Shown here: one piece after another, positions 3,007 through 55,355 of the stretch
Layout: every line of letters begins with the position of its first letter
How positions within the stretch are numbered: the first letter of the stretch is position 1
NCBI GenBank assembly: GCA_946415265.1
Contig: CAMKRV010000004.1
Span: 1 to 55,355 of the forward strand
DNA length: 55,355 nt
Reading direction: 5' to 3'
From: an uncultured Candidatus Saccharibacteria bacterium
GTDB taxonomy: Bacteria; Patescibacteriota; Saccharimonadia; Saccharimonadales; Saccharimonadaceae
Program-made: the position numbers and the translations under genes
The notes under the pieces: generated by a model
What the model saw: only the letters and a program-made list of their open reading frames with translations
What the model was told of the DNA's origin: nothing
Database searches by the model: none

Positions 3007-3029
3007 GTCTTCACTCGGCCCCACTCCGG

Positions 3030-3059
3030 ATAAAAATAAAATATGAGAGCAAGCTCTCA
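3030..3059 (-). terminator. Possible terminator of the tRNA pair
   Basis: TGAGAGC pairs with GCTCTCA (3044-3059), followed on the minus strand by a T-rich tract. It lies just beyond the encoded CCA of tRNA-Gly. Confidence 0.55.
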
Positions 3060-3073
3060 ATTTCATTTTTCTC

Positions 3074-3148: not shown

Positions 3149-3166
3149 ATTTTGCGAACATAAACC

Positions 3167-3244
3167 TGGGGTGGGATATCGGGATCGAACCGACGACCTT
3201 CTGGACCACAATCAGACGCTCTAACCATCTGAGCTAATCCCACC
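3167..3244 (-). tRNA. tRNA-His (anticodon GTG)
   Basis: The minus strand gives acceptor GTGGGAT/ATCCCAC, a D stem GCTC/GAGC, loop TTGTGGT with anticodon GTG, and T loop TTCGATC. Discriminator C73 sits opposite an encoded G at -1, the identity pair of bacterial tRNA-His, and CCA is encoded. The innermost anticodon-stem pair (31-39) is A-C instead of A-T, a mild oddity. Confidence 0.95.
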
Positions 3245-3345
3245 AGATAGGCCTATGTTGGGTATATTATAGCGGTTATTTATGAAAAAATCAAGGGAGA
3301 GAACGAGCAAATAATGGATTTTTGGAAGTTTTTATGGTTTTTATA

Positions 3346-3374
3346 TTGACAAAAATGAAAGTGTGTGCTATAAT
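3346..3374 (+). promoter_or_regulatory. Consensus promoter
   Basis: TTGACA (3346-3351), a 17-bp spacer and TATAAT (3369-3374) match the sigma-70 consensus perfectly. It drives the NPNP-repeat gene. Confidence 0.9.
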
Positions 3375-3433
3375 GAGGTTAATTGTTGAAAAACAAGGTC
3401 TTTAAAAATTCTATAATAAAGGAGAGTGTTTCT

Positions 3434-3991: not shown

Positions 3992-4022
3992 AGGCCACTC
4001 TCCTTTCGTACTTTAGAAAAAT

Positions 4023-4047
4023 GCTCGGTCGCAAGACCGGGCTTTTT
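4023..4047 (+). terminator. Terminator after the NP-repeat gene
   Basis: GCTCGGTC/GACCGGGC stem with a GCAA tetraloop followed by TTTTT. Confidence 0.9.
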
Positions 4048-4085
4048 CATATTTTAGACATAAGCGCAAAAAGCTTATATTCCTA

Positions 4086-4114
4086 TTGACAAAAAAGCGA
4101 AAGTGTGATACAAT
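4086..4114 (+). promoter_or_regulatory. Strong promoter with TGTGA spacer end
   Basis: TTGACA (4086-4091), 17-bp spacer ending GTGTGA, and TACAAT (4109-4114). The spacer resembles that of several other promoters in the window. It drives the 606-residue membrane protein gene through a 160-nt leader. Confidence 0.88.
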
Positions 4115-4120
4115 GAAAGT

Positions 4121-4280
4121 AGTCTGAGTTTTGGTGTATGAGTCAAGGCGACGAAGACCATTAACAACCGAATCATCTCAGCTTTCAAAGCTGAGTTATC
4201 CATAGATCCCCATTTTTATACTGGGGGTCGGTCAACCTCCAGAGTTTTATATATTATATTAAAATTTTAGGAGGTAAAGT
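4121..4280 (+). promoter_or_regulatory. Structured 5' leader that can mask the ribosome site
   Basis: Three stems can be drawn. CTCAGCTTT pairs with AAGCTGAG (about 4177-4195), and GATCCCCA (4205-4212) pairs with TGGGGGTC (4222-4229). AACCTCC (4234-4240) is complementary to the ribosome binding site AGGAGGT (4269-4275), with AT-rich self-complementary sequence between. The last pairing would hide the Shine-Dalgarno, as in translational riboswitches or thermosensors. I do not recognise a ligand class. A 17-nt piece of the leader (4165-4181) is exactly complementary to sequence past the end of the gene (6200-6216). Confidence 0.6.
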
Positions 4281-6101
4281 ATGTTAAACAATACATTTGG
4301 GCTGAATTTGTTTTTCAGCATCGTAACGGCTGTCGGCTTGTTCGCATTTATCGCATGGTTTGAACATGCAATGGCGAAAGCTGGCAATGGAGAAAAGTTT
4401 TTCAAAAACAAGCGTGCTTGGATTGGCGCGGCGACTTGCGCTGGGTCTGTAGGCCTGAGCATGATTTTCAGACCGCTTTTGGCGCCCGGATGGCTGGGGG
4501 TATTATTCTCCCTGCTGTTTATAGCGATTGACGTAGCGGTATTTGTGTACCTATGCTATGTCTTCCATCGTTACCACGAAGAAGACGGCGAGTGGAAACA
4601 GATTATTCCGTTGGCTGTCATATTCATAGCGATGAGCTTTGCCACGGCGGCGACCATGGCGACCATGGCGGATGCCATGAATGCCCATAGTTATTTCAGG
4701 ACGCTGTTCGGCCTGATACCTTGGTTATTGTTGGTGGGATCGATTGGTTATGTAGTTATTGATTCCCTGTACGGTAGAGCCGAAGTGGCCGAGGATGCGG
4801 AAGACTATGATAAAGCAGAGACGTGGACGACGCGTGGACGCTGGGGAATTGGAATTGTTAGCTTTATTTTGGCAATGATTCTGATTTTCGGTGCCATTGT
4901 GGGGCCGTGGACTAGCTTGACAGATTTATTTAAATCCAGCAAGAAGCCCACTGATAGCAATCCACAAGCGCAGGCGTCAGCAACAGATACCACCGCAACA
5001 AACGCAGAAAAGTCTTGGTTTACCTATCAGGAAGTAACGCAAAAATATCCGTGGCTGACATGGAACAACTTTGCGTTACAGAGTGATGGCAATTCAGACA
5101 ATAACGCCGATTTCGGCCCGGATCGTCATCACAAAGGTTGGACGGCTACAGACTATCTGCAGGACATGAAGTCGTTTGATGAAAGCGACGTAATGATCCT
5201 AGTAGCCCATGTGGCTGCAGTCGACGCGGCGAGAGATACGCGTATGGTTGGTGACTATTACGATGGAAATGGTCACGACTGGGCGCGAACTATGAACGCG
5301 CTGGTTGTAAAGTGCCTTAATGACAAAGTAGACTTTATGCATTTTTCCGAAGTCTACTTAAACATGCTGCGGAACGAAGTACGCAGTGTGCGCGTTGTCC
5401 ATATGGACGACATCAACGATCAGATGTACATTACTCCGTACACCTATTCGGGTGTGCCGGAGATTGTGGCATCTGAAACGCACCAATCTGGCGACGTTCT
5501 CATTGTCACCTTTAAACGTAAGGGTGGCGAGGAGAACGACGTGTCGGTGGGGTTCCGGATCGACTGCTGCTACCAGCCGGTAGGAGTAATCGATACGATG
5601 AAGCTGCCGAACACGAAGGTGGAGATTCCGCCGGAGCATACGCCCGGTGGTTCTACGCCCACCAATCCTGGCGGAAGTGATCCTACTAAGCCAGCTGGTG
5701 GCAGTGATCCCACTGAACCGCCAAAGCCAACACCGACTGAGCCTGCGAAGTATAACAAAGACAAGACCCAGGGCATAAAAGACCCTGGTAATGTCGAGCA
5801 GGGACTTGACGAAGACACCAATAATGGTGTCGGTGCAACGACGTCAACAAAAGATCGTGACTCTAATTCTAATCACGGGAGTTACAATGAGTACCAGCAG
5901 GCTATTGAACAGAACAAATCGGCAAATACTACGTCGAATTCTGGTTCTGGCGGTACACCGTCATCATCTTCCGCAAAGGTAGACTCCAATGACGATGGAG
6001 GCTATACACCTAAGTCTGATGCAGCTCAGACGGTGGATGGCGGAGCTATCAAAAACAACCCCGACAATCCGGCAGGCGTATATGGGGGCCTTCCGGATTA
6101 A
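4281..6101 (+). CDS. Multi-pass membrane protein with disordered Pro/Gly/Ser/Asn-rich tail
   Basis: Unrecognised, 606 residues. The first 215 residues hold about six hydrophobic segments, starting at FFSIVTAVGLFAFIAWF and ending at IGIVSFILAMILIFGAIVG. A charged domain of about 220 residues follows, with no motif I can name. The last 150 residues are low complexity, first Pro/Thr/Gly (GGSDPTKPAGGSDPTEPPKP) and then Ser/Asn/Gly. There is no C-terminal anchor or sortase motif, so the tail is probably a flexible extension. The start has a perfect AGGAGGT. Codon use is more GC-rich than in neighbouring core genes. It is a single-gene transcript with a strong promoter and regulated leader, so abundance is probably controlled. 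Confidence 0.7.
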   Translation: MLNNTFGLNLFFSIVTAVGLFAFIAWFEHAMAKAGNGEKFFKNKRAWIGAATCAGSVGLSMIFRPLLAPGWLGVLFSLLFIAIDVAVFVYLCYVFHRYHEEDGEWKQIIPLAVIFIAMSFATAATMATMADAMNAHSYFRTLFGLIPWLLLVGSIGYVVIDSLYGRAEVAEDAEDYDKAETWTTRGRWGIGIVSFILAMILIFGAIVGPWTSLTDLFKSSKKPTDSNPQAQASATDTTATNAEKSWFTYQEVTQKYPWLTWNNFALQSDGNSDNNADFGPDRHHKGWTATDYLQDMKSFDESDVMILVAHVAAVDAARDTRMVGDYYDGNGHDWARTMNALVVKCLNDKVDFMHFSEVYLNMLRNEVRSVRVVHMDDINDQMYITPYTYSGVPEIVASETHQSGDVLIVTFKRKGGEENDVSVGFRIDCCYQPVGVIDTMKLPNTKVEIPPEHTPGGSTPTNPGGSDPTKPAGGSDPTEPPKPTPTEPAKYNKDKTQGIKDPGNVEQGLDEDTNNGVGATTSTKDRDSNSNHGSYNEYQQAIEQNKSANTTSNSGSGGTPSSSSAKVDSNDDGGYTPKSDAAQTVDGGAIKNNPDNPAGVYGGLPD

Positions 6102-6151
6102 TATGGATAACACGCCTAGAGAATTGACCACTCTCTGGGCAAAATGCACCT

Positions 6152-6328
6152 TATTGGCCTGGCAGCAATAGCTGCCGGGTCAATACCAAGATTTGAGACT
6201 GAGATGATTCGGTTGCATAGACGAAAATTAACAATTCGGCTAGCAACAGCTTAAACTTTTCTTTGGGAAAAGAAAAGTTTAGCAAAAGAAACCAGTTAGA
6301 TTTTTAAATTGGAAGTGAATTCCAATTT
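6152..6328 (+). repeat. Cluster of three hairpins in a 288-bp gap
   Basis: This gap has no gene. A 15-bp hairpin with an AATA loop (6152-6185, two G-T pairs) follows the membrane-protein stop without a T run. At 6200-6216 lies CTGAGATGATTCGGTTG, the exact reverse complement of 4165-4181. A perfect 13-bp AT-rich hairpin (6252-6281) and an 8-bp hairpin (6306-6328) follow. They may be 3' UTR stability elements or the leader of the next gene. I see no clear -35/-10 for the 6390 gene. Confidence 0.6.
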
Positions 6329-6389
6329 GGAAATTGTTTATATTTTAGAAATTTAATCTTTCATACAACACTATAAAGAAAGGAATAAT

Positions 6390-7646
6390 ATGAATAAGAT
6401 TTATAAAACTATTCTTGGTGTGTCTGCGGCAGCGGTAATGCTGGCAGGTACACTAACTCCTGTGATGGTAAGTGCTTGGGGTGATTCGGCAAATGGCCGT
6501 CCTAGCTATACAATCGCAGAAATCAACGAGGGTAAACTCGGTGATACTATTACGTTTAACTCAATTTCAGACGGTAAAATTGGGGAAGAAAAGAATTTCG
6601 TAGGTGCAAGAGTGGCATCTTCGGACGGGGCTTATAACACTAAGTCTATCAACGTAGAAGACGGGCAAATCTATACGATTCGTCTTTACGTACACAATAA
6701 CAACCCTAAGGGTACAGAAAGAATTGCTGAAAATGTGAAAGCAACTTTTTCTTTGCCTACTACGGTAGCAAAATCTCATACGATTATCGGGTACTTGGAT
6801 TCCTCCAATGCTACACCTACACGGTATTGGGATGAAGTAACGCTTGCCTCCAATGATAATTTCTATCTGGAATACATTGATGGTTCTGCTAAATATACCA
6901 ACGCTAAGCTTGGTACGGTGGCTTTGCCTAATGAGGTAATTACTTCTGGCGCAACACTAGGGTATGATAAGCTAGACGGTAAGATCCCAGGTTGTTACCA
7001 ATATGATGGTAACGTAACTATTCAGGTAAAGGTACATAAATCTGTATCGGCGAAGGTTTCTAAGCAAGTACGGATTAAAGGTACTAAAACTTGGAGTGAA
7101 TCTGTAAACGCTAAGGTGGGTGACGAAGTAGAATACCAGATCGAATACGTAAACTTACTTGCAGATCAAGTAAATGACGTGATGATTCGGGATATGTTGC
7201 CTACTAACGTGGAGTATGTGCAAAATTCCACTTACCTTTACAATACAGCCTATCCAAATGGTGTACAGCTTAAGGATAATACTTTGACAACTACTGGTAT
7301 TAATATCGGTAGCTATACGTCTAAAGGTAATGCTTATGTACGCTTTACTGGTAAAGTAGTAGATAAAACTTTGGCTTGTGGTGACAACCAGCTTATTAAC
7401 TGGGCGGCCTCTACTGTAAACGGTACGGTAACCAAAGATGATGCGTCTGTAATGGTAAAGAAGGATGGCGATGTCTGTAAAGATAAGCCGGTAAATCCTA
7501 CGCCAACTCCAGATAATCCTACCAATACACCTAGTACGATTGTAAGTACTGGTCCAGCTACGATCGTGACGGGTGCGGTGGGTGCTGGTTCGGTAGTGAC
7601 GATGCTTGGTTATTACATTGCTAGCCGTAAAAAGTTAATGAAATAA
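6390..7646 (+). CDS. Surface protein with DUF11-like domain and C-terminal anchor
   Basis: A 418-residue exported protein. Residues 1-29 form a signal peptide (basic start, AAAVMLAGTL core, VSAW cleavage region). Residues about 225-335 resemble a DUF11-type repeat, with VGDEVEYQIEYVN, a DMLPTNVEYV strand and INWAAST near its end; such domains are immunoglobulin-like stalks of cell-wall proteins. A Pro/Thr/Asn linker leads to VSTGP, a hydrophobic segment and the tail ASRKKLMK, the layout of a sortase substrate with a non-canonical motif, or simply a membrane anchor. The SD is AAAGAAAGG. A strong terminator follows. It is probably displayed on the envelope and may contact the host cell (inference). 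Confidence 0.75.
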   Translation: MNKIYKTILGVSAAAVMLAGTLTPVMVSAWGDSANGRPSYTIAEINEGKLGDTITFNSISDGKIGEEKNFVGARVASSDGAYNTKSINVEDGQIYTIRLYVHNNNPKGTERIAENVKATFSLPTTVAKSHTIIGYLDSSNATPTRYWDEVTLASNDNFYLEYIDGSAKYTNAKLGTVALPNEVITSGATLGYDKLDGKIPGCYQYDGNVTIQVKVHKSVSAKVSKQVRIKGTKTWSESVNAKVGDEVEYQIEYVNLLADQVNDVMIRDMLPTNVEYVQNSTYLYNTAYPNGVQLKDNTLTTTGINIGSYTSKGNAYVRFTGKVVDKTLACGDNQLINWAASTVNGTVTKDDASVMVKKDGDVCKDKPVNPTPTPDNPTNTPSTIVSTGPATIVTGAVGAGSVVTMLGYYIASRKKLMK

Positions 7647-7682
7647 GTTGACCGCTTCATAATAGGGCGGGAAATACTTAGA

Positions 7683-7717
7683 AAATCTCCTTAGGTTTAG
7701 GCCTAGGGAGATTTTTG
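7683..7717 (+). terminator. Terminator after DUF11-like surface gene
   Basis: A 13-bp stem AAATCTCC(T/C)TAGG with a short loop (7683-7714), followed by T residues. Confidence 0.92.
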
Positions 7718-7772
7718 TTGGGTGTTTTTTTTAAGTAGAGGCTTAATTGGAAGTTTTACATAAGGAAAGCTC

Positions 7773-7801
7773 TTGCGTTTTGGTGGGTGGTGGGGTAGAA
7801 T
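7773..7801 (+). promoter_or_regulatory. Promoter of the FISUMP gene
   Basis: TTGCGT (7773-7778), a 17-bp GT-rich spacer and TAGAAT (7796-7801). Confidence 0.6.
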
Positions 7802-7850
7802 AGAAATGGAATATTGTTATGTTTAGGTCGTAAAATAAAAAGGAGAAGAA

Positions 7851-9992
7851 GTGAATTTGCAACAACATCTAAGAAGTGAGCGAGCTCTGCGGCTAGCGGG
7901 GTTGGTAGCTTGTGGGGTGTTGCTGTTTTTGGCGGGGCTAATAATGTGTCCGCCGATGCAAGAAAACGAGGCTGATGCAACTACTGGTCAGGCTACTCCG
8001 GCGACTAGTTCAGTGACGTTAAGCATAGCGGATGGTCCTCTTTCTTTTGATCTAAAACCGATTTCGCCAGATGGAACTTTTGCAGAATCTGATGCGATGG
8101 AGATTACGGCATCTACGGATAGCTATAGTGGCTATACGCTAAGCATTGCGGCGCAGAATGGTGATAATGCTACGAAATTAATTAATACGGATACTACAAA
8201 CTGCCCGGTGACGGAGACTAAATGTTTTATTGCGCCACTCGGCAGTATTGTAACGAAGAGTGATTATGCCAGCCCAGCAGATAGCACGGCGGCGGCAGCT
8301 GTAAAAAATACGTGGGGCTTTAGCCCAAGTGAATATTTGGATGGAGGAACCAGTGTGGATAATAGCGCTACGGATGGTACGGAAAAATACTTACCAATAT
8401 CTACTTCGGCAACGAATTTGGCAAAAACAACTGTAGCTAATAGTAGTGACGCTTCAGATACTTACAGGATGAAAATTGGAGCTAGAGTGGGTGGCGATAT
8501 AATGATGGGTACATATGAAAATACTTTTGTGATTGCAGCAGTAGGAAATGGTGCGGCTTATACGATAAACTATGCGGATGGTAGTGGACAGGCTGATCCA
8601 TCTAGTATGCCAGGTACGCAGACGGGTACTTCTTATGAAACAACTATAGCTTTAAGCAATGTTCAGCCGACGAGGGCAGGATATTATTTTGCGGGATGGT
8701 GTAGTATGGAAACTAGTGATACTTCTTGTGGCGGTACTGTGTATCAGCCTGGTGGTAATTTTGGTATAGACCAAACCGCAAATGACAACACTATTAAGCT
8801 TTATGCGATGTGGACGGATTGTCAGGCTGGCACTATTTGCTACAAGGGCAACGGCAATACTGGTGGGTCTATGGGTGTCCAAAATGTAGGCACGTCTGCA
8901 ACTGAAGTTATGTTGTTGGCGTCTAACTTCCAGCGCACAGACTATGGCTTCCTGGGGTGGAGTACAGTAGAAAATCCGGTAATTGGTACGGATACAATAT
9001 ATGGCCCAATGGAGACAGTGAGTGGCCTAGATTTATCTATTTCTGGGATGAAATTGTATGCAGTGTGGAAGGAAGCGTCTACTACTCAGGCATATTTGCA
9101 AGATTGGACTGGGTGTAGTAATTTGATGCAAGTCACGTATAGTAATGGCGTGTTCACAGTGAGTGCAAATAGTTTCATAGCATTGAAAGATAAGCGCGAT
9201 AACCAGACTTATGCCGTGGCGAGATTGGCGGATGGTAACTGTTGGATGATAGAGAACTTGAGACTAGATACTGCAGGTACGGTAGGGAATAATATCAATG
9301 ATTCCAATGTGACTAACCAGAGTTTAGCACAGGGTTATGGCGGAGTGTTCAACGGTTTAGCTGATCCAGAAAATGCAAATTTTTCTGAGAATATAAATGC
9401 TAATAGCTTATATTATAGCGGGACGCAAAGTGGTGGTACGGCTTCTGTAGATATTGGCACTGATAAATATCCTGATTACCGTATGCCAAGATATAGAAAC
9501 GCTAGTACGGCTTCTCCAACTGTTAATCCTACCACGAATAATAATTATATGTATTCCTATGGTAATTATTATACTTGGGCGGCAGCCATAGCTGATACTA
9601 CATATTATGGTTCTACAAATGATCATACCACAGTGGAAACGTCTATTTGTCCGAAGGGATGGCATTTACCATACGGCAATAGTGGTAGCTCTGGCTCAAA
9701 CCTAGGTAACACAAAAGGTGGATATTATTATTTGAATCAACAAATGAGTGAGTATACTAATGGTGATGGTTTAAAGGAGTTCAGAAGCTTCCCGAATAAT
9801 TTCCTATTCTCCGGCGTCGCCTACCTTAGTGATATTAACTATCGCGGCTCGCACGGGTACTACTGGTCCTCTTCCGCGAATAATGCCACCTACGCCTATA
9901 GCCTGTACCTCGACAGTTCGGATCTCTACCCAGGTACGTTTAGCGCTTATAAGTTCTTCGGCTTTCCCGTCCGTTGTGTAGTTGGCTCTTAA
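7851..9992 (+). CDS. Secreted InlB-repeat/FISUMP surface protein
   Basis: 713 residues, GTG start with AAGGAG nine bases upstream. Residues 17-33 are a signal anchor. Residues about 45-230 form an extracellular region of beta type. Two InlB-like B repeats follow (about 235-325 and 330-407), each with a GY/GF-x-GW core and ending in LYAMW or LYAVW. The rest is a FISUMP (Fibrobacter succinogenes major paralogous) domain: QTYAVARLADGNCWMIENLRLD, CPKGWHLPYG, YYWSSS and a terminal GFPVRCVVG, a C-type-lectin-like fold. There is no C-terminal anchor. The last 70 codons switch to C-ending, GC-rich codons, unlike the rest of the gene, pointing to an exchanged or diversified 3' cassette. The role is probably binding to a host or neighbouring cell. 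Confidence 0.85.
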   Translation: MNLQQHLRSERALRLAGLVACGVLLFLAGLIMCPPMQENEADATTGQATPATSSVTLSIADGPLSFDLKPISPDGTFAESDAMEITASTDSYSGYTLSIAAQNGDNATKLINTDTTNCPVTETKCFIAPLGSIVTKSDYASPADSTAAAAVKNTWGFSPSEYLDGGTSVDNSATDGTEKYLPISTSATNLAKTTVANSSDASDTYRMKIGARVGGDIMMGTYENTFVIAAVGNGAAYTINYADGSGQADPSSMPGTQTGTSYETTIALSNVQPTRAGYYFAGWCSMETSDTSCGGTVYQPGGNFGIDQTANDNTIKLYAMWTDCQAGTICYKGNGNTGGSMGVQNVGTSATEVMLLASNFQRTDYGFLGWSTVENPVIGTDTIYGPMETVSGLDLSISGMKLYAVWKEASTTQAYLQDWTGCSNLMQVTYSNGVFTVSANSFIALKDKRDNQTYAVARLADGNCWMIENLRLDTAGTVGNNINDSNVTNQSLAQGYGGVFNGLADPENANFSENINANSLYYSGTQSGGTASVDIGTDKYPDYRMPRYRNASTASPTVNPTTNNNYMYSYGNYYTWAAAIADTTYYGSTNDHTTVETSICPKGWHLPYGNSGSSGSNLGNTKGGYYYLNQQMSEYTNGDGLKEFRSFPNNFLFSGVAYLSDINYRGSHGYYWSSSANNATYAYSLYLDSSDLYPGTFSAYKFFGFPVRCVVGS

Positions 9993-45176: not shown

Positions 45177-46625
45177 ATGTTAAGTTTAAATAAAAAGAAA
45201 AAAGTGGCGTTTTCGGCATTGGCGGTTACGGCTTTGGCCCTGCCGGTGTCGGTATTAGCTGTAAATAAGATTAGTTCATTTGAGAATACCTATGCGGCAA
45301 CTATGCCAGCTAGTTTTAAAGACCAAAATTTTTACGATTGTGTGTTGGCGGAATTTCAGAGCGAGTTTCCGAACGAAACGGTAGCTAGTACTGGGCTGAC
45401 TGATGCGCAGTTGGCAAAGATTAAGACGGTTTGGTGTCCCGGAAATGATAATAGTAAAATTTCTGATGCTACCGGTATAGAAAAAATGACTGCGGTAACG
45501 GGTATTACGCTTAATAAAAATAGCTTGAAGACAATAGATGTTTCAAAAAATGTTAATTTGATTGTCTTGGCTTTGACCGAGAACCAACTAACTTCCCTGG
45601 ATGTGTCGAAAAATCCAGAATTAATGAATCTTAGAGTATATGGTAATTCGTTGACTTCCTTGGATGTGTCACATAATCCTAAACTTGAAGTTCTTTTGGC
45701 ACACAGTAATTCGTTAACTTCTATGGATATTTCGAGTAATTCTGATTTGACTGACCAATTTACCGTTGACGATATTTTGGTGAAGGCTAACATCTCGCCG
45801 ATAATCACTACCGTGTCGCCAAGCTATGACCTGTCTGAGTTGAATATAATCAATTCCACTCAGACTATTAGCAACACAAGTAATTACACGTTTAATAGCA
45901 ATAAGAATACTATTATAGTAAATAATTACAGTAGTGCCGGTGGGGTCATACAAGTCTCTTCGTCGGCTCAAGGCAGGACGTATAAATTACAATTACCAAA
46001 GTTTGTGAAGTTTGATACTAATGGTGGGAGTAATTCTCCATCGGCTGTGAGTTGTTATTCTACTGCGGCGACGGGATCTTGTTCTGTAACTGTTCCATCT
46101 GCGATGCCAACTAGATCAGGATATGATTTTAAAGGTTATGCAGATTCGGCTGATGCTGAAAATGTAATTTATAATGTGGGAGGATCTATAAGTTTGACTG
46201 AGCCAAAAACCGTCTATGCTGTTTGGAATAAGAAAAGTACAAATATAGACGATAATGGTGGCAACAGTGGTGATAGTAATAATGATAACGGTGGGGATGG
46301 AACAGGTGATGTAGATGGTGGGGATACGAATGGTAATGATAATAACAATACCAGTGATGACACGAATGGTGGGGATACAGACGATAGGGATAGCGATACG
46401 AGTGGGACGAGTACGGCCAGCGATGGCAATAGCGGGGAAGAGGATGATACGCCAGTGCCGAGCACTTCGAAGAAAGGTATTACTCCAGACACTGGGGCGA
46501 ATACGAAGACAGAGGAGAACGGCAACCTAGTGGTAACTTATGCTTTACCGATGGTAGTGATAGTGTTAGCTGGAATATTATTCAAGAGAAACAGAAGTAA
46601 GAAATATATAAAGTTTGAACGGTAG
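45177..46625 (+). CDS. Internalin-like LRR surface protein with sortase-type tail
   Basis: 482 residues. A signal peptide (1-38) is followed by a short leucine-rich repeat region (about 100-190; repeats of the type LTSLDVSKNPELMNLRVYGN), a linker domain and one InlB B-repeat (about 278-350, FDTNGGSNSPSAVSCYS to TVYAVWNKK). A long Asp/Gly/Asn-rich stretch follows, then TPDTGA, a hydrophobic segment (VVTYALPMVVIVLAGILF) and a basic tail, the order of an LPxTG-type sortase substrate with a variant motif. It is probably wall-linked and binds a partner surface, as internalins do. Regulated through an upstream small ORF. Confidence 0.85.
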   Translation: MLSLNKKKKVAFSALAVTALALPVSVLAVNKISSFENTYAATMPASFKDQNFYDCVLAEFQSEFPNETVASTGLTDAQLAKIKTVWCPGNDNSKISDATGIEKMTAVTGITLNKNSLKTIDVSKNVNLIVLALTENQLTSLDVSKNPELMNLRVYGNSLTSLDVSHNPKLEVLLAHSNSLTSMDISSNSDLTDQFTVDDILVKANISPIITTVSPSYDLSELNIINSTQTISNTSNYTFNSNKNTIIVNNYSSAGGVIQVSSSAQGRTYKLQLPKFVKFDTNGGSNSPSAVSCYSTAATGSCSVTVPSAMPTRSGYDFKGYADSADAENVIYNVGGSISLTEPKTVYAVWNKKSTNIDDNGGNSGDSNNDNGGDGTGDVDGGDTNGNDNNNTSDDTNGGDTDDRDSDTSGTSTASDGNSGEEDDTPVPSTSKKGITPDTGANTKTEENGNLVVTYALPMVVIVLAGILFKRNRSKKYIKFER

Positions 46626-46704: not shown

Positions 46705-47448
46705 ATGAAGCTGAAGACTCGGAGGATAGTAGCAGTAATAGCTGTGCTGGTGGGGGTAGGCGTGTGGCTAGCGGTGAATCCGGCGAGCTATGAGACTATT
46801 CTGACGCAAGCGGGTGGCGGTGAAAATGAGAATGAAAATGCCGAAGCGGATTATGCAGCGGAAGCGGTAACTGAAGCAAACGAAAACGCACCGCTAGCGA
46901 CAGAAATTTTAGAAAAATTAGAGGTGAAGGGGCGAGCGCCGAAAACTGGGTATTCGCGGGAAGAATTTTATAAAAATTGGCCGACGGTGGATGGATGCAA
47001 TTTGCGACAGAAAATTATAAAGAGAGAGTTTGGCGATACGGCGGTGCTGGATGGGTGTACGGTGGTGGCCGGGGAATTTGACGAGCCATATACTGGTGAG
47101 CATCGAATATTTACAGAAAAATCGCAGATTTCTAAAATACAGATAGACCATGTAGTGGCATTAAGTGATGCGTGGCAAAAGGGGGCGCAGTATATGGAAA
47201 AAGAGGTGAGATATAAGATAGCGACGGATCCATTGAATTTGCTGGCGGTGGATGGGCCAGCAAACGAGCAGAAATCTGATGGCGATGCAGCGACTTGGCT
47301 GCCGAGCAATAAAAAATTCCGGTGCCAATATGTGGCCAGGCAAGTATCGGTAAAGTATAAATACGGATTATGGGTGACGGAGGCAGAAAAAACTGCCATT
47401 TCTAATGTGTTAACGAATTGTCCCAAAGAGCCAGCGATTGGTGTATAA
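46705..47448 (+). CDS. Membrane-anchored HNH (DUF1524-type) nuclease
   Basis: 247 residues. An N-terminal membrane anchor or signal (8-26) and a Glu/Asn/Ala-rich linker precede the nuclease domain. IDHVVALSDAWQKGA carries the DH of the HNH motif, and DPLNLLAVDGPANEQKSDGDAATWLPSN the N and H-like metal ligands, matching secreted GmrSD-C/DUF1524 nucleases. Two cysteine pairs may form disulfides outside. Outside the cell it could degrade DNA for nucleotide uptake or act on incoming DNA. TATAAT (46693-46698) lies six bases before the ATG (leaderless). Confidence 0.85.
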   Translation: MKLKTRRIVAVIAVLVGVGVWLAVNPASYETILTQAGGGENENENAEADYAAEAVTEANENAPLATEILEKLEVKGRAPKTGYSREEFYKNWPTVDGCNLRQKIIKREFGDTAVLDGCTVVAGEFDEPYTGEHRIFTEKSQISKIQIDHVVALSDAWQKGAQYMEKEVRYKIATDPLNLLAVDGPANEQKSDGDAATWLPSNKKFRCQYVARQVSVKYKYGLWVTEAEKTAISNVLTNCPKEPAIGV

Positions 47449-48689: not shown

Positions 48690-49523
48690 ATGAAAAAGAT
48701 AAAAGAACAGGTGGGTAATTATTTAAATTATTGTGAAAAGGTGAGAGGGATGTCGCCGGCTACGATGTGGGCGAAGCGAAATATTTTAAAGAGATTTATA
48801 GAAGTGACGAAAATAAGAAATCTGGAAGAATTAGATAACAGCGTTTTTAATGAGTGGGTAGAAAATGAGAAAAGACGAGGTGTAAGTGCTAGATCTATTA
48901 ATACTTACAATGCGACAATCTGTGCGATGGTGCAATATTATGTTGGCTTAGGTGTGGGTGTGCCGCTAAAAATACCGTTGGTGCAAAAGTTGAAAGAAGG
49001 AGAAACGCGAAGAAGATTTTATACGGCCGCAGAAATAGAGAAAGTATTAGAATATACAGATATAGAAACGGGGCTAATGATAAAAATCATGTTTGAAACT
49101 GGGATGCGAATAGCGGAGCTGACTAGGATGAGGGTGGACGATATAGATGGGCGGAGAATTAAATTTATAGGAAAAGGAAATAAGCCGCGGGAGGTGTATA
49201 TGCGGGAGGATACGCGACGGGAATTGTTTAAATATCTAATGAAGCAGGGTAGGGTTGGTTGTGTTTGGGGAGATGGGGTAAATGGTGATCCGCCAACGGT
49301 AGAAACGGTGCGGAAAAGATTGCGTAGGCCGTTTTATGCGGCGGGGTTTGATGATTTTTATCCGCATGCGCTGAGACATTCTTTCGCGACAGATTTGCAG
49401 ATGAGGGGTGCTAGCGTAGCGGAGATAAAAGAGATGATAGGGCATGAAAATATCGCTACGACCGAGCGATATCTTCATGGGTTTGAGGGGAGGCTAAAGG
49501 AACTGTTTGATAAATATAGATAA
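48690..49523 (+). CDS. Tyrosine recombinase (XerC/D-like)
   Basis: 277 residues. The N-terminal SAM-like core-binding domain covers about 1-95 (YLNYCEKVRGMSPATMWAKRNILKRF). The catalytic domain has the Arg of TGMRIAELTRM, a Lys in IKFIGKGNKPREVYM, HALRHSFATDLQMRG with His and second Arg, and GHENIATTERYLH with His and the nucleophile Tyr. Length fits chromosome-dimer resolvases, but the context, next to a duplicated surface module, also fits an element integrase. I start at the MKKIKEQ ATG; the track's earlier start overlaps the preceding gene. A terminator hairpin abuts the start. Confidence 0.92.
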   Translation: MKKIKEQVGNYLNYCEKVRGMSPATMWAKRNILKRFIEVTKIRNLEELDNSVFNEWVENEKRRGVSARSINTYNATICAMVQYYVGLGVGVPLKIPLVQKLKEGETRRRFYTAAEIEKVLEYTDIETGLMIKIMFETGMRIAELTRMRVDDIDGRRIKFIGKGNKPREVYMREDTRRELFKYLMKQGRVGCVWGDGVNGDPPTVETVRKRLRRPFYAAGFDDFYPHALRHSFATDLQMRGASVAEIKEMIGHENIATTERYLHGFEGRLKELFDKYR

Positions 49524-50462
49524 TTAGCTTCTGCTAGCTTTTTGGTTAGCCTTTTTGCGGGCTTTTGCTTTGGCTACGAAGTAGAAAATGAGCGCAAAGA
49601 TAGCGAAGATGATGATGAAGAGGAGCCAGATGGGGCAGACGATAACTAGCTTGGAGACTTGAGTAGTGACGCCTTCGAATTCTACGGTGTAGATGACGTT
49701 GAAAATGCCGACTGCTGGTGTATCTTCCCAAGCTAGTTCATTATAAAGTGTTCTGTCTGGTAAAATGGTCTTCTCGATAGGGACTTCTTCGTTGGTATAA
49801 ACTTCTTCGCCGGAAAACAGTGGAAATATTTGCATGGTGTACTTTGCGGTGCCATGTACGTTACCAGTATTTTTTATAGTAGATGAGCCGGTAATATTGC
49901 CAGATAGAAGGAACGAAGGAACATCTGCGCTGGTGATTTCGCCATGGCGCTCGGTGGTGCCGGCGATTTCGGCACAAATTATGTGTGCTATACTGTATTT
50001 AGCTTGTATATTAATGGATTCTTCGCCAGAATCGTAGTTGTTATTCGAAGTAACTTTAATAGCGGCATACTGCCCACCTGCTGGGGCATTTTCCGGTACG
50101 TCTATGGAAAAGTATAATTCTTCGGTATTGTTTGGCGCGATGGTGCCACTGGTCTTATCTAATTTAATCCAATCTACTATCTGATTATAGTCGTTGTTAT
50201 TCTCATATATTGAATTGTGGTTCTCGTCGACATAATAAGGTGAAACGCTTACGGTATATGCAAAGTTGCCAATATTTGATGCTGGGTTGGTAACTTTAAA
50301 TGAACTACGGTATGTCTCGCCCGCCGATAAGACTATCTTCTGGTTCATTGGCGATATTGAAAACAGTCCATCGGCATGTATGGTTGACGAATTACTAAAG
50401 CTAAGTACTGCCGTCATAAGTCCTGTAAGTATGATCTTGAATAATGTTTTTCTATATTTCAT
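49524..50462 (-). CDS. DUF916-like (WxL-interacting type) membrane protein, module copy A
   Basis: 312 residues: signal peptide (1-31), then a beta-sandwich domain with ISPMNQKIVLSAGETYRSSFKVTNP, DWIKLDKTSGTIAPNNTEELYFSIDVPENAPAGGQYAAIKV, a second domain, a membrane segment (about 275-299) and a basic tail KAKARKKANQK. This order matches DUF916/DUF3324 proteins of Gram-positive WxL clusters, which bind surface subunits and peptidoglycan. It is the third gene of copy A and a paralogue of the protein at 53340 (same PAGGQYA, VCPIWL and KAKARKK segments). SD AAAGGAG. Confidence 0.8.
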   Translation of the reverse strand: MKYRKTLFKIILTGLMTAVLSFSNSSTIHADGLFSISPMNQKIVLSAGETYRSSFKVTNPASNIGNFAYTVSVSPYYVDENHNSIYENNNDYNQIVDWIKLDKTSGTIAPNNTEELYFSIDVPENAPAGGQYAAIKVTSNNNYDSGEESINIQAKYSIAHIICAEIAGTTERHGEITSADVPSFLLSGNITGSSTIKNTGNVHGTAKYTMQIFPLFSGEEVYTNEEVPIEKTILPDRTLYNELAWEDTPAVGIFNVIYTVEFEGVTTQVSKLVIVCPIWLLFIIIFAIFALIFYFVAKAKARKKANQKASRS

Positions 50463-50483
50463 AAAACTCCTTTAGATAATTCA

Positions 50484-51029
50484 CTATTTTATTTTACAGG
50501 TGAAGTTTTGATTTTTATAATTTCTATGATATTCAGATAATGTTTTGGGCAGAGTAATTTCATCGTATAGTTCAATCATGAAATACTTTGCGGCTATCGG
50601 GGTCAAATCTTTAAAAGTTATATATAGTTCCATGCGTATAGAATCGTTTAATTTTGTGAAATGTACGTTAAATGGATCTGCTCCGAGATTATTCTTTCCG
50701 AAACTGATGCCCATATCGGCGTGATTGTGCGCTTCGCTTGCTTCGATTTGTCCTGGGGTGTCGTAGTATAAGGTGTAGGTTAAGGCTATCGTGTCAAGTT
50801 CGTCTTTGTAAAAATTTGCAGAGATGCGAAGATTCCGTGCTCTGGCATTGTCGTATCCGAAAAATGGATAGATAGTACTTTGATTTTCGCATATTAATGA
50901 CTCACCGATGACGTTTTCGGGATTTTGACCGCTTGTTTTTGTTTCCCCTCGCATTAATATTGTCATTATGATTGCGGCAATTATTATTGCTATTATAATA
51001 ACCGGGGCTAATATTTTCTTGGATTTCAT
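50484..51029 (-). CDS. Membrane-anchored module protein, copy A
   Basis: 181 residues from the ATG behind AGGAG (the track start is 11 codons earlier). An N-terminal membrane segment (about 5-26, ILAPVIIIAIIIAAIIMTIL) is followed by an outer beta-type domain ending NYKNQNFTCKIK. Two cysteines (near SLICENQ and at the end) may pair. The same layout and ending (YRNKSFQCELNN) are seen in the copy B protein at 52745. No known family. Confidence 0.65.
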   Translation of the reverse strand: MKSKKILAPVIIIAIIIAAIIMTILMRGETKTSGQNPENVIGESLICENQSTIYPFFGYDNARARNLRISANFYKDELDTIALTYTLYYDTPGQIEASEAHNHADMGISFGKNNLGADPFNVHFTKLNDSIRMELYITFKDLTPIAAKYFMIELYDEITLPKTLSEYHRNYKNQNFTCKIK

Positions 51030-51047
51030 CAATTCTCCTAAATCATA

Positions 51048-51083
51048 AAAATTGCCGCCCACATAAAGTTGAACGGCAATTTT
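51048..51083 (-). terminator. Intercistronic hairpin of module A
   Basis: AAAATTGCCG/CGGCAATTTT stem followed by T residues on the minus strand, between the subunit gene and the membrane-protein gene. The same position in module B also has a hairpin (52692-52724). Partial termination would give much more subunit than the downstream proteins. Confidence 0.8.
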
Positions 51084-51102
51084 AAATTGCTCTACTCTTA
51101 GA

Positions 51103-51804
51103 TTAGCTATCTAGCTGATCAAGGGTATAGGTGACATGGCCAGTGTAAACACCTGCGGCTTGAGTGTTGTCGATACCTACGCCATAGGTAACTGTATAGT
51201 AATCCCCGGCATTAGTGGTAGTCTTTGGAGCGGTTGTTGCGCTACCGGCAATGATTCCGTTAGCATTTGCGGAAGTGGCCCATGATCCATGACTGTTTTT
51301 TACTTCGCCACGATTACCGCTAGCAGCTTCTACCATGTAGGACCAACCAGAGGTTGTACTGCTAATAGTGCCTGCGATATCAATTGTATCCGTTGTCGTG
51401 GTAGAAGTTAGATTCGCTGCGCCGCTTGTGGTGATCGTGTAGCCTTTTTCATTGTTGCAGAACACCCCTAGAGTTGTAGTGCCAAGGTTTGTCGTGCTGG
51501 TGCCGTTAGACATAGTCTTGCTTAAGGTGTCAGAGGCAGCAGCCGTGCCGGTGACGGTAGCTTCGTATGAAGTTTCTCCTGAAGGCATACCTTCCCAAGA
51601 GCCATCGCCATTAGCGCGAACTACACCGGCAACATCAATTGCTGGACTAGGGGTTGCATCTTCGTGGCCAAGTGAGCAGACCTTTTCGATTGTAATCTCT
51701 AAATTGTCGGTCGTCGAGGTTACATCTGTCGCGAATGCGCCGACTACTGGCATGGCTGCTAAAGCTACTGCGGAAGCGCTAGCTGCAATTAATGATTTTT
51801 TCAT
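51103..51804 (-). CDS. Secreted surface subunit, module copy A
   Basis: 233 residues. Signal peptide (1-25, SAVALAAMPVVGAFAT) then a Thr/Ser/Gly/Ala-rich beta domain. The end, YTVTYGVGIDNTQAAGVYTGHVTYTL, resembles the last strands of WxL or spore-coat-U/fimbrial-type subunits, where a closing xYxGxVTYTL strand is typical. Two cysteines (VCSLGH, VFCNN) probably form a disulfide. It is the first gene of copy A, with AAAGGAG and a leader shared with copy B. It is probably an abundant surface or fibre subunit (inference). Confidence 0.75.
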   Translation of the reverse strand: MKKSLIAASASAVALAAMPVVGAFATDVTSTTDNLEITIEKVCSLGHEDATPSPAIDVAGVVRANGDGSWEGMPSGETSYEATVTGTAAASDTLSKTMSNGTSTTNLGTTTLGVFCNNEKGYTITTSGAANLTSTTTTDTIDIAGTISSTTSGWSYMVEAASGNRGEVKNSHGSWATSANANGIIAGSATTAPKTTTNAGDYYTVTYGVGIDNTQAAGVYTGHVTYTLDQLDS

Positions 51805-51820
51805 GTTTTCTCCTTTTTGG

Positions 51821-51846
51821 ATTAATTATATTTGTGTCAATATATG
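51821..51846 (-). repeat. Shared leader element, copy A
   Basis: Read on the minus strand this begins CATATATTGACACAAATATA and lies just before the ribosome site of the copy A subunit. The plus-strand element at 52017-52043 is the same but for one extra base. The 266-bp divergent gap between the two modules thus has inverted copies at both ends. Confidence 0.88.
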
Positions 51847-51971
51847 CTTGTCTAAATCGTGATTTTGTATTGCTTGAAACGATTACATTTTTTGTTGAGA
51901 AAATTAAAACAACAGGGATAATCTTGTGGAAAAGTCAATATGGCTAAGCTTAAAAAATATTTAAAATTTTC

Positions 51972-52000
51972 TTGACAACATAATCACGCTTATGTAAAAT
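51972..52000 (+). promoter_or_regulatory. Promoter of module B with palindromic spacer
   Basis: TTGACA, 17-bp spacer ACATAATCACGCTTATG, TAAAAT. ACATAA and TTATGT form an inverted repeat spanning the spacer, a possible operator. Confidence 0.75.
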
Positions 52001-52016
52001 AAGAAGTGTTAAAGGT

Positions 52017-52043
52017 CATATATTGACACAAATATAAATTAAT
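52017..52043 (+). repeat. Shared leader element, copy B
   Basis: Inverted counterpart of 51821-51846, inside the 5' leader about ten bases after the predicted start of transcription. It may bind a regulator or form part of a conserved mRNA leader. Confidence 0.88.
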
Positions 52044-52070
52044 TCTGCTTAGCAGAAGGAGAAAAATAAT

Positions 52071-52673
52071 ATGAAAAAATTAGCAATCGCAGGTGCTTCA
52101 CTCGCTCTCGCAGCTATGCCAGTAGTGGGCGTATTCGCAGCTGATGGTAACACTACGACGACTGATACTGTTCAGGTCACGATTGATACAGCTTGCTCTT
52201 TGACAGCGACTGGTGCTGGGACTTATAGCACTACTTTGACTAACGGTACTGCTAGCAGTGATCTTGGTTCTACTTCTATCAATATCAAGTGTAATGATGC
52301 TGGTGGTTGGATGGTAAATGCTATTGGCGCGAACACATCTACAACCGCAGGTGCTGGCGCTACCGACATGGCTCCAGATGCGGCTGGCAAGACCCCGATT
52401 GCTACTGGTACAAGTCTTGATGGCTCCGTATCTAACTGGGCGATGAAGCTTACCGCTAGCGAAGGTGCTTATGCGCCAACCATCGTAACTGGCTATGATC
52501 AGTATCATGCTGTTCCTGGCGCAGCTGATACTAAGGTAGTCTCTGGCGTCACTACTGACCAAACAACTGGTTCTACCTTTACCACCAATTACAAGGTAGC
52601 TGTAAGTCCTACTCAGCAACAAGGTACTTACACTGGTAAGGTAACCTACACGCTTGTTCACCCAAATGCTTAA
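52071..52673 (+). CDS. Secreted surface subunit, module copy B
   Basis: 200 residues. Signal peptide (1-23, ASLALAAMPVVGVFAAD, close to copy A) and a Thr/Gly/Ala-rich beta domain with two cysteines (ACSLT, IKCND) and the ending FTTNYKVAVSPTQQQGTYTGKVTYTLVHP. Codon use is more even and C/T-ending, as for a highly expressed gene. The SD AGAAGGAG is strong. It opens copy B and is followed by a strong hairpin. The role is probably the main subunit of a surface layer or fibre. Confidence 0.75.
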   Translation: MKKLAIAGASLALAAMPVVGVFAADGNTTTTDTVQVTIDTACSLTATGAGTYSTTLTNGTASSDLGSTSINIKCNDAGGWMVNAIGANTSTTAGAGATDMAPDAAGKTPIATGTSLDGSVSNWAMKLTASEGAYAPTIVTGYDQYHAVPGAADTKVVSGVTTDQTTGSTFTTNYKVAVSPTQQQGTYTGKVTYTLVHPNA

Positions 52674-52691
52674 TTTGAGTTAAAGCGTTTT

Positions 52692-52724
52692 ACAAGATGC
52701 AGCTCTCGGTGGGCTGCATCTTGT
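52692..52724 (+). terminator. Intercistronic hairpin of module B
   Basis: Perfect 12-bp stem ACAAGATGCAGC/GCTGCATCTTGT with a 9-nt loop, 18 bases after the subunit stop. Few T residues follow, so it may stabilise the subunit mRNA as well as cause partial termination. Confidence 0.82.
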
Positions 52725-52744
52725 GTATATAAAATTAAGGAGTT

Positions 52745-53353
52745 ATGATGGCTGAAGATAATAAACCGAAAAAACGTAAAAAAATCTTGATTGGAATTAC
52801 GATAGTTGCAGCAGTTGTAGCTATCATATCTGTCATCGCTTATTTCTTAACCAATAAACAAGAAACCTATATTTCTACAAATAGCGATAAGGTCAGGATG
52901 GAGACAGTTTATTGTGTAACTAGTAATTCGAAGGATGCTTTCTTTGCTCCTACTGCCTCATTAAGTGATACGCATACAATAAAAATGGTTTTTAGGGATG
53001 GGTCTTTTTATAGAGCATCGTATTCTTATGAAGGGAGTTTTCAGAATAATCAATCCGCAGTGAATGCTAATGATACTATGCATGCAGATTATAACAAGTA
53101 TATGGCAAGTTATGGCATAAATGCCGAGAAATTATACCCCACCTTTGTAGTGAGGGATACAAAAGAAAGTATTAACTTATACGTAGAGTATCAAGATTTT
53201 TCTGCTGCAATAGCTAAGATTTTCTTTATCGGTGCGGATGAATATTCGAATTTCCATGATATAAACCCAGAAAAAGTTGAACAAATATACAGGAATAAAA
53301 GTTTTCAATGTGAGCTAAATAATGAAGGAGAAAAAGAAAATGAAAAGGAATAA
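52745..53353 (+). CDS. Membrane-anchored module protein, copy B
   Basis: 202 residues: lysine-rich start (KPKKRKK), membrane segment (about 13-34, ILIGITIVAAVVAIISVIAYFL), then an outer domain with one cysteine near VYCVTSN and one at the end (FQCELNN). Size, topology and terminal segment match the copy A protein, although overall identity is low. SD AAGGAG. It overlaps the next gene by 14 bases. Confidence 0.68.
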   Translation: MMAEDNKPKKRKKILIGITIVAAVVAIISVIAYFLTNKQETYISTNSDKVRMETVYCVTSNSKDAFFAPTASLSDTHTIKMVFRDGSFYRASYSYEGSFQNNQSAVNANDTMHADYNKYMASYGINAEKLYPTFVVRDTKESINLYVEYQDFSAAIAKIFFIGADEYSNFHDINPEKVEQIYRNKSFQCELNNEGEKENEKE

Positions 53354-54311
53354 ACGCAAATCGATTTTAATTGCTTTGATAGCGTTATTTGTATGTGGTT
53401 TGAATGTATTAAATGTTTTTGCGGATGGTAAGAATGGAGAAAGTACCATGACTATTTCGCCCATGACACAAAAAATAATTTTGATGCCTGGAGAGACTAA
53501 GGAGGTAGTAATAAAAGTTTCTAACCCTTATCTAGCAAAACAAAATTTGGAATACTCGGTAAGTGTGGGCTCATTTAGTCAGTCGGCTGGAGAAGATAGT
53601 AGAGATGATTATGATTCTGTGGATACCGGAACAAAGACTGAGTATAACCAAATTATGGATTGGATTACTTTAGGAAAAGATTCTGGCACTGTTGCTCCCA
53701 ATGAGGTAGATTTAATTTCTTTCACCATAAATGTACCGAATGATGCGCCTGCGGGTGGTCAGTATGCGACAATTTTAGTAACCGATGAAACGGATTATAT
53801 GGGCGATAGCGATGGAGATGTTTCTATTGAGAGCAAGATGCAAATAGGCTCAATTATTTATGCGGAAGTAACTGGAGCGACACGCGAAGAGGGGAAAATT
53901 CTTGAAAATAATATCCCTTCGTTTTTATTAAATAACCAATTAGAAGCAACTTCTATGGTTCGAAATGATGGCAATGTACACACCGATGCATCATATATAT
54001 TGCAAGTATGGCCAATGATCGGAGATGAGGAAATTTGTACAAACGAGGAAGAGCCAGATTTAAGTTTGATTTTGCCAGAAACTGAGCGTTTTCATGCACA
54101 AACCTGTAATCTTCCTATTGCCGGTATATTTCGCGTCAAGCAAACTGTGAAAATTTTCGGCGAGGAATCTGTTGTGGAAAAAATGGTGATTGTGTGTCCG
54201 ATCTGGTTGATATTTATAATATTGTTTATAATATTTGCCTTGATATTCTACTTTGTAGCAAAAGCGAAAGCTAGAAAAAAGGTGGCGAAAAAGGCTGAAA
54301 AGACCGTTTAA
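53340..54311 (+). CDS. DUF916-like membrane protein, module copy B
   Basis: 323 residues from the ATG that has AAGGAG nine bases upstream; the track start six codons earlier overlaps that site. Signal peptide (to about residue 29, NVFADG), TISPMTQKIILMPGETKEVVIKVSNP, DWITLGKDSGTVAPNEVDLISFTINVPNDAPAGGQYATILV, second beta domain, membrane segment and tail KAKARKKVAKKAEK. It parallels copy A segment by segment. Proteins of this type in WxL clusters are thought to hold surface subunits to the wall. Confidence 0.8.
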   Translation: MKRNKRKSILIALIALFVCGLNVLNVFADGKNGESTMTISPMTQKIILMPGETKEVVIKVSNPYLAKQNLEYSVSVGSFSQSAGEDSRDDYDSVDTGTKTEYNQIMDWITLGKDSGTVAPNEVDLISFTINVPNDAPAGGQYATILVTDETDYMGDSDGDVSIESKMQIGSIIYAEVTGATREEGKILENNIPSFLLNNQLEATSMVRNDGNVHTDASYILQVWPMIGDEEICTNEEEPDLSLILPETERFHAQTCNLPIAGIFRVKQTVKIFGEESVVEKMVIVCPIWLIFIILFIIFALIFYFVAKAKARKKVAKKAEKTV

Positions 54312-54337
54312 GGTAGCAACGTATAATAAATATATAT

Positions 54338-54366
54338 AAATATCGCCCTCTATCAGGGCGATATTT
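54338..54366. terminator. Bidirectional terminator
   Basis: AAATATCGCCCT/AGGGCGATATTT stem between module B and the convergent DUF3761-like gene. Confidence 0.9.
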
Positions 54367-54376
54367 GATGAGCTAT

Positions 54377-54952
54377 TTATTTGGCTAGAACTCTCTCGGT
54401 GTAGGCTTCTTTGGCGGGAGTTACTACTATAGTTTCTGCCCAAGCTTCTTTAGCAGGTACATCTACTACTGTTTCATCCCAAGCTGCAGAGATAAGGTAG
54501 GTTTCGGGGATATATTCATACCATGGGCCGCCACTGTACCATACGCCACCGTGATAGCTACAAGTGCCACGCCCGGCGGAGCCAGAGTATTCGCCATCAC
54601 GGCAACGTGAAAGAGCACAGGTACCACTTTTGTAGCTAATAGTGGTTTTAACACAAACTGCTACTTGGCGGGTGTCGTATTGTGCTGGATGGTGTACAAT
54701 ATGTGTTTTGGCTGGCTCTGCAGGATGATTAACCGTTTTAGTGACTTCTGGCTCAGCTTCGTGAAAAATATAAGTAGAATATCTGTTCCCGTCTTCATCT
54801 TGGCAGGTGTCGGTAATAGTGACGCCATCGCAAGTCCTTTGCCATTTGGCGTCTTCTATACCTTTACTAATATTGGTAGATATTATCCCTATAGTACAAA
54901 ATGAGCCGAGGATAGATAGTGTAATTAGTATTTTCTTAAAAAATTTCCCCAT
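54377..54952 (-). CDS. Exported DUF3761-like protein with repeat tail
   Basis: 191 residues from the ATG beginning MGKFFKKIL, which fits a signal-anchor (8-27); the longer track start lies upstream. CRDGEYSGSAGRGTCSYHGGVWYSG matches the DUF3761 pattern (CxDGxxS...GxCSxHGGV), a small extracellular cysteine-rich domain of unknown role. On both sides are repeated V-x-x-P-A-x-x-A segments (TKTVNHPAEPAKTHIVHHPAQ and VVDVPAKEAWAETIVVTPAKEAYTE), which suggest an extended stalk. A TACAAT about 24 bases upstream and AAAGG give a normal leader. Confidence 0.75.
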   Translation of the reverse strand: MGKFFKKILITLSILGSFCTIGIISTNISKGIEDAKWQRTCDGVTITDTCQDEDGNRYSTYIFHEAEPEVTKTVNHPAEPAKTHIVHHPAQYDTRQVAVCVKTTISYKSGTCALSRCRDGEYSGSAGRGTCSYHGGVWYSGGPWYEYIPETYLISAAWDETVVDVPAKEAWAETIVVTPAKEAYTERVLAK

Positions 54953-55083
54953 ATAATAAAACCTTTGTATTTCTATTGTATCATATTTTGCTAAAAAAGT
55001 CAATATTAACAGGGGTGAAATGAGTTAATGATTGTGAGATAGAAAGAAATGTGGGAAAATGTAAAAATTGTGCGAAAAAAGTG

Positions 55084-55112
55084 TTGACATAGGGCAAATA
55101 GTGCGATATAAT
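55084..55112 (+). promoter_or_regulatory. Promoter of the 23S rRNA gene
   Basis: TTGACA (55084-55089), 17-bp spacer ending GTGCGA, TATAAT (55107-55112). The stretch 54953-55318 holds no gene. After the promoter come about 200 bases of leader with stems such as GTCG/CGAC near 55130 and GAGGTCG near 55181, presumably for processing. No 16S 3' end (CCTCCTTT) or tRNA is present. Confidence 0.85.
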
Positions 55113-55318
55113 GGGGAAAGTTAAGCAAGTCGTTATTTACGACCTCTACAAAAAGGAAAAGGAAAGCGAGGAAATCTTTTGAGGTCGCTTGTACGGCTTC
55201 AGAATATATCTTTAAGACTCTCCGGTTTTAACAATTAGATAATTAACGATGAAAAGATTTTAAAGACGGAACGAGTAATTGAATCAAACTTCGATTGCTA
55301 GTTAAGTCAATGCATAAA

Positions 55319-55355
55319 AAGGTAATTAAGGGCACTGATAGTGGATGCCTTGACA
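55319..55355 (+). rRNA. rrl: 23S rRNA, 5' end (partial)
   Basis: GGTAATTAAGGGCACTGATA and the following GTGGATGCCTTGACA match the conserved 5' end of bacterial 23S rRNA (GGTTAAG...GGTGGATGCCTTGGCA). The gene runs off the right edge. The exact first base is uncertain by a few positions. Confidence 0.9.

Follow-up and report, generated by a model that had tools for sequence, protein, structure and literature searches.

A proposed DNA-inversion switch between two pilus-like operons in an uncultured Saccharibacteria genome

We analysed a stretch of 55,355 nucleotides (nt; hereafter the window) that forms contig 4 of the 773-kb genome of an uncultured Candidatus Saccharibacteria bacterium, in which a tyrosine recombinase gene adjoins two divergent sets of three surface-protein genes. 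Saccharibacteria are very small and are believed to live on the cells of other bacteria, and the relatives used for comparison also carry the name Candidatus Saccharibacteria, many of them from the ruminant gut. Our analysis indicates that this locus is very likely a site-specific DNA-inversion (phase-variation) switch that alternates between two pilus-like operons in the manner of the Xer1/vpma or fim systems. In the mechanism we propose, the recombinase would recombine two 21-bp inverted sites, probably within a 6-bp GACACA/AACACA spacer, and would thereby invert the 170-bp segment between the two arms. Because this segment holds the only strong promoter, each of its orientations would transcribe one of the two operons, giving a pilin-like subunit at high level, an attenuating hairpin after it, and then a single-pass protein and a membrane protein resembling WxLIP and fimbrial chaperones. 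Since the two operons have diverged, a clonal population would be a mixture of cells bearing one or the other of two fibres that differ in antigenicity and function. The initial annotation had already described a duplicated surface module and hinted at alternating expression, both of which agree with what follows, but it missed the cause, a site-specific inversion cassette: the recombinase gene, whose end at 49523 directly abuts the left set, was absent from it, as was the single promoter.

The two arms (51826-51846 and 52017-52037) are identical in inverted orientation at 21 of 21 positions across a 170-nt spacer, and each lies in the 5' untranslated region (UTR) of its set, just before the ribosome-binding site. 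This pair is the only occurrence of the element in the window, where 0.02 would be expected by chance even allowing 3 mismatches, and likewise in the whole genome. What had been called a shared leader element is therefore an exact inverted repeat, as described, but one we read as a recombination arm and not merely as a leader. Aligning silent with ON cores shows that their likeness ends ~6-8 bp into the core on the silent side, the part common to both being (inner half ATATTT-like)-AACACA-(AA(A)TATAAATTAAT). This common part has the look of a dif-type site, with a 6-bp spacer separating two half-sites. Promoters were assessed by consensus match, and from promoter orientation we predict that the right set is ON in the window as assembled. 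A TGTGGAAAA box recurs among the ON promoters of the family, in most cases 43-48 bp ahead of the -35 hexamer. As a separate observation, the window's copy on the opposite strand, TTTTCCACA, fits the DnaA-box consensus, and nearly all ON promoters of the family have the conserved box on their upstream side.

Table 1. Features of the proposed switch and of the two gene sets it separates (positions in the window)
Feature	Position	Strand	Basis or remark
Tyrosine recombinase, 277 amino acids (aa), proposed invertase of the switch	48690..49523	+	Phage_integrase; possible upstream start 48570
Left gene 3, DUF916/WxLIP-like membrane protein	49524..50462	-	Open reading frame (ORF), profile search, homologue alignment
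Left gene 2, single-pass membrane protein, two conserved cysteines	50484..51029	-	ORF, alignment
Hairpin between left subunit and mid gene, terminator- or attenuator-like	51048..51083	-	RNA folding, -19.8 kcal/mol, z -3.6
Left gene 1, secreted pilin-like subunit, 233 aa, predicted silent in present orientation	51103..51804	-	Its core lacks an upstream promoter
Left arm of perfect 21-bp inverted repeat, proposed recombination site, TATATT-GACACA-AATATA	51826..51846	-	
Proposed invertible segment, 170 bp	51847..52016	.	Relatives with homologous segments in opposite orientation
Conserved box TTTTCCACA (TGTGGAAAA on +), ~47 bp upstream of -35 hexamer	51925..51933	-	
Single strong promoter TTGACA-N17-TAAAAT, near-consensus, pointing to right set	51972..52000	+	Inside inverted repeat
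Right arm of 21-bp inverted repeat, 5' leader of right set	52017..52037	+	
Right gene 1, secreted pilin-like subunit, 200 aa, predicted ON in assembly	52071..52673	+	Promoter, AlphaFold2 (AF2) model, fold matches
Hairpin between right subunit and mid gene	52691..52725	+	RNA folding, -25 kcal/mol, z -5.3
Right gene 2, single-pass membrane protein	52745..53353	+	ORF, alignment
Right gene 3, DUF916/WxLIP-like, two immunoglobulin-like domains and C-terminal transmembrane helix	53322..54311	+	Model, fold match

Evidence for the switch also comes from comparison across the genus, for which all comparisons were made on metagenome-assembled genomes. A strict core pattern was found in 24 of 174 genomes, against 0 for the reversed-pattern control, and it was present in 20 of the 38 genomes with the recombinase subfamily compared with 4 of the 136 without it (Fisher p 2.6e-12). 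Fourteen loci carry two or three cores (the window, L035, L036, L040, L075, L076/L185, L081-L085, L087, L088 and L091), and in every one a promoter of the form TTGACA-N17-TA(A/T)AAT stands 24-26 bp upstream of exactly one core, the remaining core or cores having none. Divergent subunit genes have exact inverted repeats of 19-133 bp around the common core, with some of the intervening segments as small as 163-500 bp. The arms are identical within a locus and variable between loci; the core variants (three or four A, or GACACA) match within each of the 14 loci, the 3A/4A variant being concordant in 14/14, and differ among them, a pattern that suits continuing exchange between the arms. Three genomes (G080, G086 and G118) have three cores, and more than two alternatives may therefore be available there. 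A locus in G017 (L041, 6236-6809) has divergent sets, an exact inverted repeat of 58 bp and a single promoter, but its core differs (GGACACACAAAATTTATG); no recombinase of the window subfamily was found in that genome.

Another way to view the repeat is as a shared 5' regulatory element, whether an operator or an RNA leader, that two operons retain from an old duplication, with the recombinase there by coincidence. The position of the repeat just before the ribosome-binding site in both sets, the homology of the sets, and the presence of the core with a single fixed promoter in three genomes that lack a recombinase of the window type (G079, G128 and G174) would all be compatible with this. However, a shared element does not account for a second copy that lacks a promoter in 14 of 14 loci, for exact identity within a locus when cores vary among loci, for the linkage to the recombinase, or for a promoter orientation that differs among species. 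On the one-promoter-per-locus pattern we reject a plain operator, and we regard the broader explanation as highly unlikely.

Opposite orientations of the segment were seen in two comparisons between species. In G018 and G077 the recombinase lies on the same side and the distal sets are orthologous (73% aa identity for the subunit, 63% for the mid protein and 73% for the DUF916-like protein), whereas their promoter segments, when aligned, point in opposite directions (76.6% over 94 bp). Likewise, the window and G175 have the recombinase and left flank in common (81% nt identity over 1.67 kb), yet their segments again run in opposite directions (77.8% over 90 bp), so that the left set is the one predicted to be ON in G175. 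Among all loci gathered, a search for two strains differing by the inversion found none; the sole near-identical pair (G083:C11 and G092, 99.8% over 4.8 kb) has the same orientation. Additionally, nine core sites are no more than 150 bp from a contig end, against an expectation of 0.76, and the G110 contig breaks off 8 bp into the core, at the position from which two orientations would differ. These contig ends fit mixed orientations, although they are suggestive only, because repeats or strain variety also break assemblies. Beyond the right set (54312-55355) and in relatives, most genomes with the locus have a contig end no further than ~2.5-7 kb from the core, often just past the DUF916 gene, which gives the impression of a site that varies greatly as a whole from strain to strain.

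Two of the genomes without a recombinase, G174 and G079, show synteny with the window in both flanks (88-95% nt); at the corresponding position they carry just one set, whose promoter is fixed. The two-set switch was thus plausibly derived by gain of the recombinase and of an inverted second set, loss being the alternative. The same two genomes would also suit a recombinase that mainly inserts and excises cassettes at AACACA, like an integron or a dif module, with inversion a by-product or a rare event; so would the three-core loci, some of which have direct-oriented sites (G080, G086 and G118), and the clustering of contig ends around the module. Where there are two cores, however, the sites are always inverted, and the expected outcome is therefore inversion and not excision; moreover, one promoter per locus on a side that varies by species is the signature of inversion. 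We consider cassette traffic a very improbable account of the locus.

The product of 48690-49523 belongs to the tyrosine recombinase family by its sequence: it matches Pfam Phage_integrase (E 2.9e-28) and an N-terminal SAM-like domain, and its R140, K162, H226, R229, H252 and Y261 are invariant in 17 relatives, so that the catalytic R-K-H-R-H-Y set appears intact. It is not a housekeeping XerC or XerD, scoring 124.5 and 103 bits against equivalog cut-offs of 335 and 330; the genome holds separate Xer-like genes, to which the subfamily is ~30% identical. The subfamily occurs in 38 of the 174 genomes of the genus, and a sparse order-wide sample placed it in just 3 genera, all of the same family. 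We gathered the surroundings of the recombinase from ~40 relatives and located the three set genes by blastp. Members of the closer subfamily are found next to divergent sets, between them or at the end of a contig, and in four genomes (G007, G137, G072 and G092) the recombinase is itself inside the segment. Most of the distant recombinases (<~50% identity; L089, L093-L104 and others) lack adjoining long arms or modules, and for this reason we tie only the closer subfamily to the switch. Two recombinases of ~35% identity (L105 in G024, 7110-8391, and L109 in G193, 7209-8432) lie between inverted repeats of 149 bp and 66 bp that reach the start of a secreted protein, which suggests a further form of the switch that has diverged and uses another core.

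The recombinase would be irrelevant if inversion proceeded by homologous recombination between long 5'-identical regions, as it does in the sap genes of Campylobacter fetus. Several loci have identical arms of 58-133 bp that run into the signal-peptide codons, and the G017 locus combines a 58-bp arm pair with no recombinase of the subfamily, as this explanation would predict. Arms of 21 bp in the window and 19 bp in G166, with spacers of 170 and 184 bp, are nevertheless very short for such a process, which also leaves aside both the linkage to a dedicated recombinase and the dif-like core with its 6-bp spacer. Homologous recombination is in our judgement even less probable than the two alternatives above, and we continue to favour site-specific inversion by the adjoining recombinase, with cells of one strain flipping the segment.

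The two sets (51804-49524 on the minus strand and 52071-54311 on the plus strand) have the same order of subunit, single-pass protein and DUF916/WxLIP-like protein. The DUF916-like proteins are 46% identical and share the PAGGQYA and FYFVAKAKARKK segments, the subunits are 36% and the mid proteins 19% identical, and the signal-peptide coding regions beyond the repeat arms are 75% alike; by these figures the halves are homologous but old. The initial annotation was accurate on this layout, namely the divergent duplicated triplet, the two shared segments and a hairpin after each subunit gene, both hairpins being stable on RNA folding. The comparison it had proposed with other Saccharibacteria shows that the module recurs across relatives, the single-pass family alone being present in 151 of 174 genomes of the genus. 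The hairpins would favour production of the subunit over the other two proteins. In one relative (L042 in G025, 2662-9863) three subunit genes stand in tandem before each mid/DUF916 pair, and the arrangement is not divergent.

Structure models point to a fibre. The AF2 model of the right subunit (predicted local distance difference test, pLDDT, 83.8) is all-beta with two invariant cysteines and an N-terminal strand that is loose and unstructured in the monomer, and its fold matches are TLP-1b, FimA-type and Csu pilins and TasA (Foldseek E 4.5e-4 to 0.06); a sequence search against solved structures gave no relative. The subunit thus resembles donor-strand pilins and TasA in its modelled fold. 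The right DUF916-like model (pLDDT 84.4) has two immunoglobulin-like domains and a C-terminal transmembrane helix, and its top PDB match is the Enterococcus faecium WxLIP protein (9i1y, E 2.6e-12), followed by fimbrial chaperones. We infer that the subunit forms a fibre and that the DUF916-like protein may serve as its membrane-bound chaperone or anchor. The earlier suggestion of a surface layer or fibre stands as to a surface module; of the two, a surface layer (S-layer) has less in its favour than a donor-strand pilus or fibre, since no match to an S-layer family was obtained and the fold of the subunit suggests pilins and TasA.

That the layout resembles Gram-positive WxL clusters with different subunits, as first proposed, is partly borne out. 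The likeness lies in the WxLIP-like modelled fold of the DUF916-like protein and in a genome paralogue that passes the Pfam WxLIP_PGBD cut-off (30.1 bits). In contrast to those clusters, the window's own DUF916 proteins fall below the Pfam WxLIP cut-off (16.5 and 18.4 against 27.3 bits), the subunit is donor-strand-pilin-like, and the WxL domain PF13731 has no match in the genome at E 0.1, with a positive Lactococcus lactis control, which rules out WxL membership of the subunit. The Pam pilin of the candidate phyla radiation (CPR; NF058581) shows a weak likeness to the left subunit (E 0.041, 14 bits) and to 11 further places in the genome (best 27.5 bits), all under the 55-bit cut-off; no paper on the Pam pilus system was found in the literature searched.

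Several observations weigh against an active switch between pili. Opposite orientations were seen between species and not within one strain or population, and the contig breaks could be explained by repeats alone or by strain diversity. The recombinase gene of G175 has in-frame stops, and thus not every locus need be active. A promoter-like TAGACA-18-TATAAT (51854-51825, minus strand) overlaps the left arm and might partly express the 'off' set, although shuffled sequence yields matches of this kind at least as often. The Foldseek E-values behind the pilus assignment are weak (best 4.5e-4, with a template modelling (TM) score of ~0.4). In that G175 locus (L075, 8274-8888) the distal set is broken as well as the recombinase gene, and it is possibly a naturally locked switch.

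Two neighbouring genes lie outside the switch: 46705-47448 encodes a protein resembling HNH-type nucleases (GmrSD_C, E 6.7e-18), which is secreted or anchored and may serve to scavenge DNA, and 45177-46625 one with leucine-rich repeats, a Listeria-Bacteroides repeat and a membrane anchor at the C-terminus.

The literature searched held no report of programmed inversion or surface switching in Saccharibacteria, Patescibacteria or CPR, with many subscription papers outside its coverage. The locus bears on how ultrasmall episymbionts recognise hosts and cope with a change of host. We tentatively propose that an episymbiotic lineage of Patescibacteria shuffles two or three pilus operons under one promoter by means of its own recombinase and dif-like site, which could give each population ready variants of a host-touching structure and so act as a host-range or immune/phage-evasion switch. 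With a recombinase, a defined site and a single promoter, the switch is directly testable, and the recombinase/site pair (AACACA core) can be used as a search query across the phylum.

The fim switch of Escherichia coli is an invertible promoter of the tyrosine-recombinase type. The UpaE switch (PMC6083910) and the CwpV switch of Clostridioides difficile (PMC2784873) are invertible segments of that type. All three resemble the present locus in placing a short promoter segment between inverted repeats, with a tyrosine recombinase nearby and surface structures under control; however, they turn one gene or operon ON and OFF, whereas here each orientation would drive one of two operons. In the vpma locus of Mycoplasma agalactiae, the tyrosine recombinase Xer1 lies beside a family of surface-protein genes with a unique promoter, the recombination sites are in the gene 5' UTR (-1 to -72), and one gene is expressed at a time (PMC2268961). 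There the units are single lipoprotein genes and the role of Xer1 is proven by knockout, while here they would be whole three-gene operons of unrelated fold, and the case is built from sequence with a different recombinase and site subfamily. By analogy, vpma/Xer1 is nonetheless the nearest mechanistic precedent, with which the Saccharibacteria locus shares an adjoining tyrosine recombinase, a unique promoter, sites in the 5' UTR, predicted one-at-a-time expression, and a host-dependent bacterium with a small genome.

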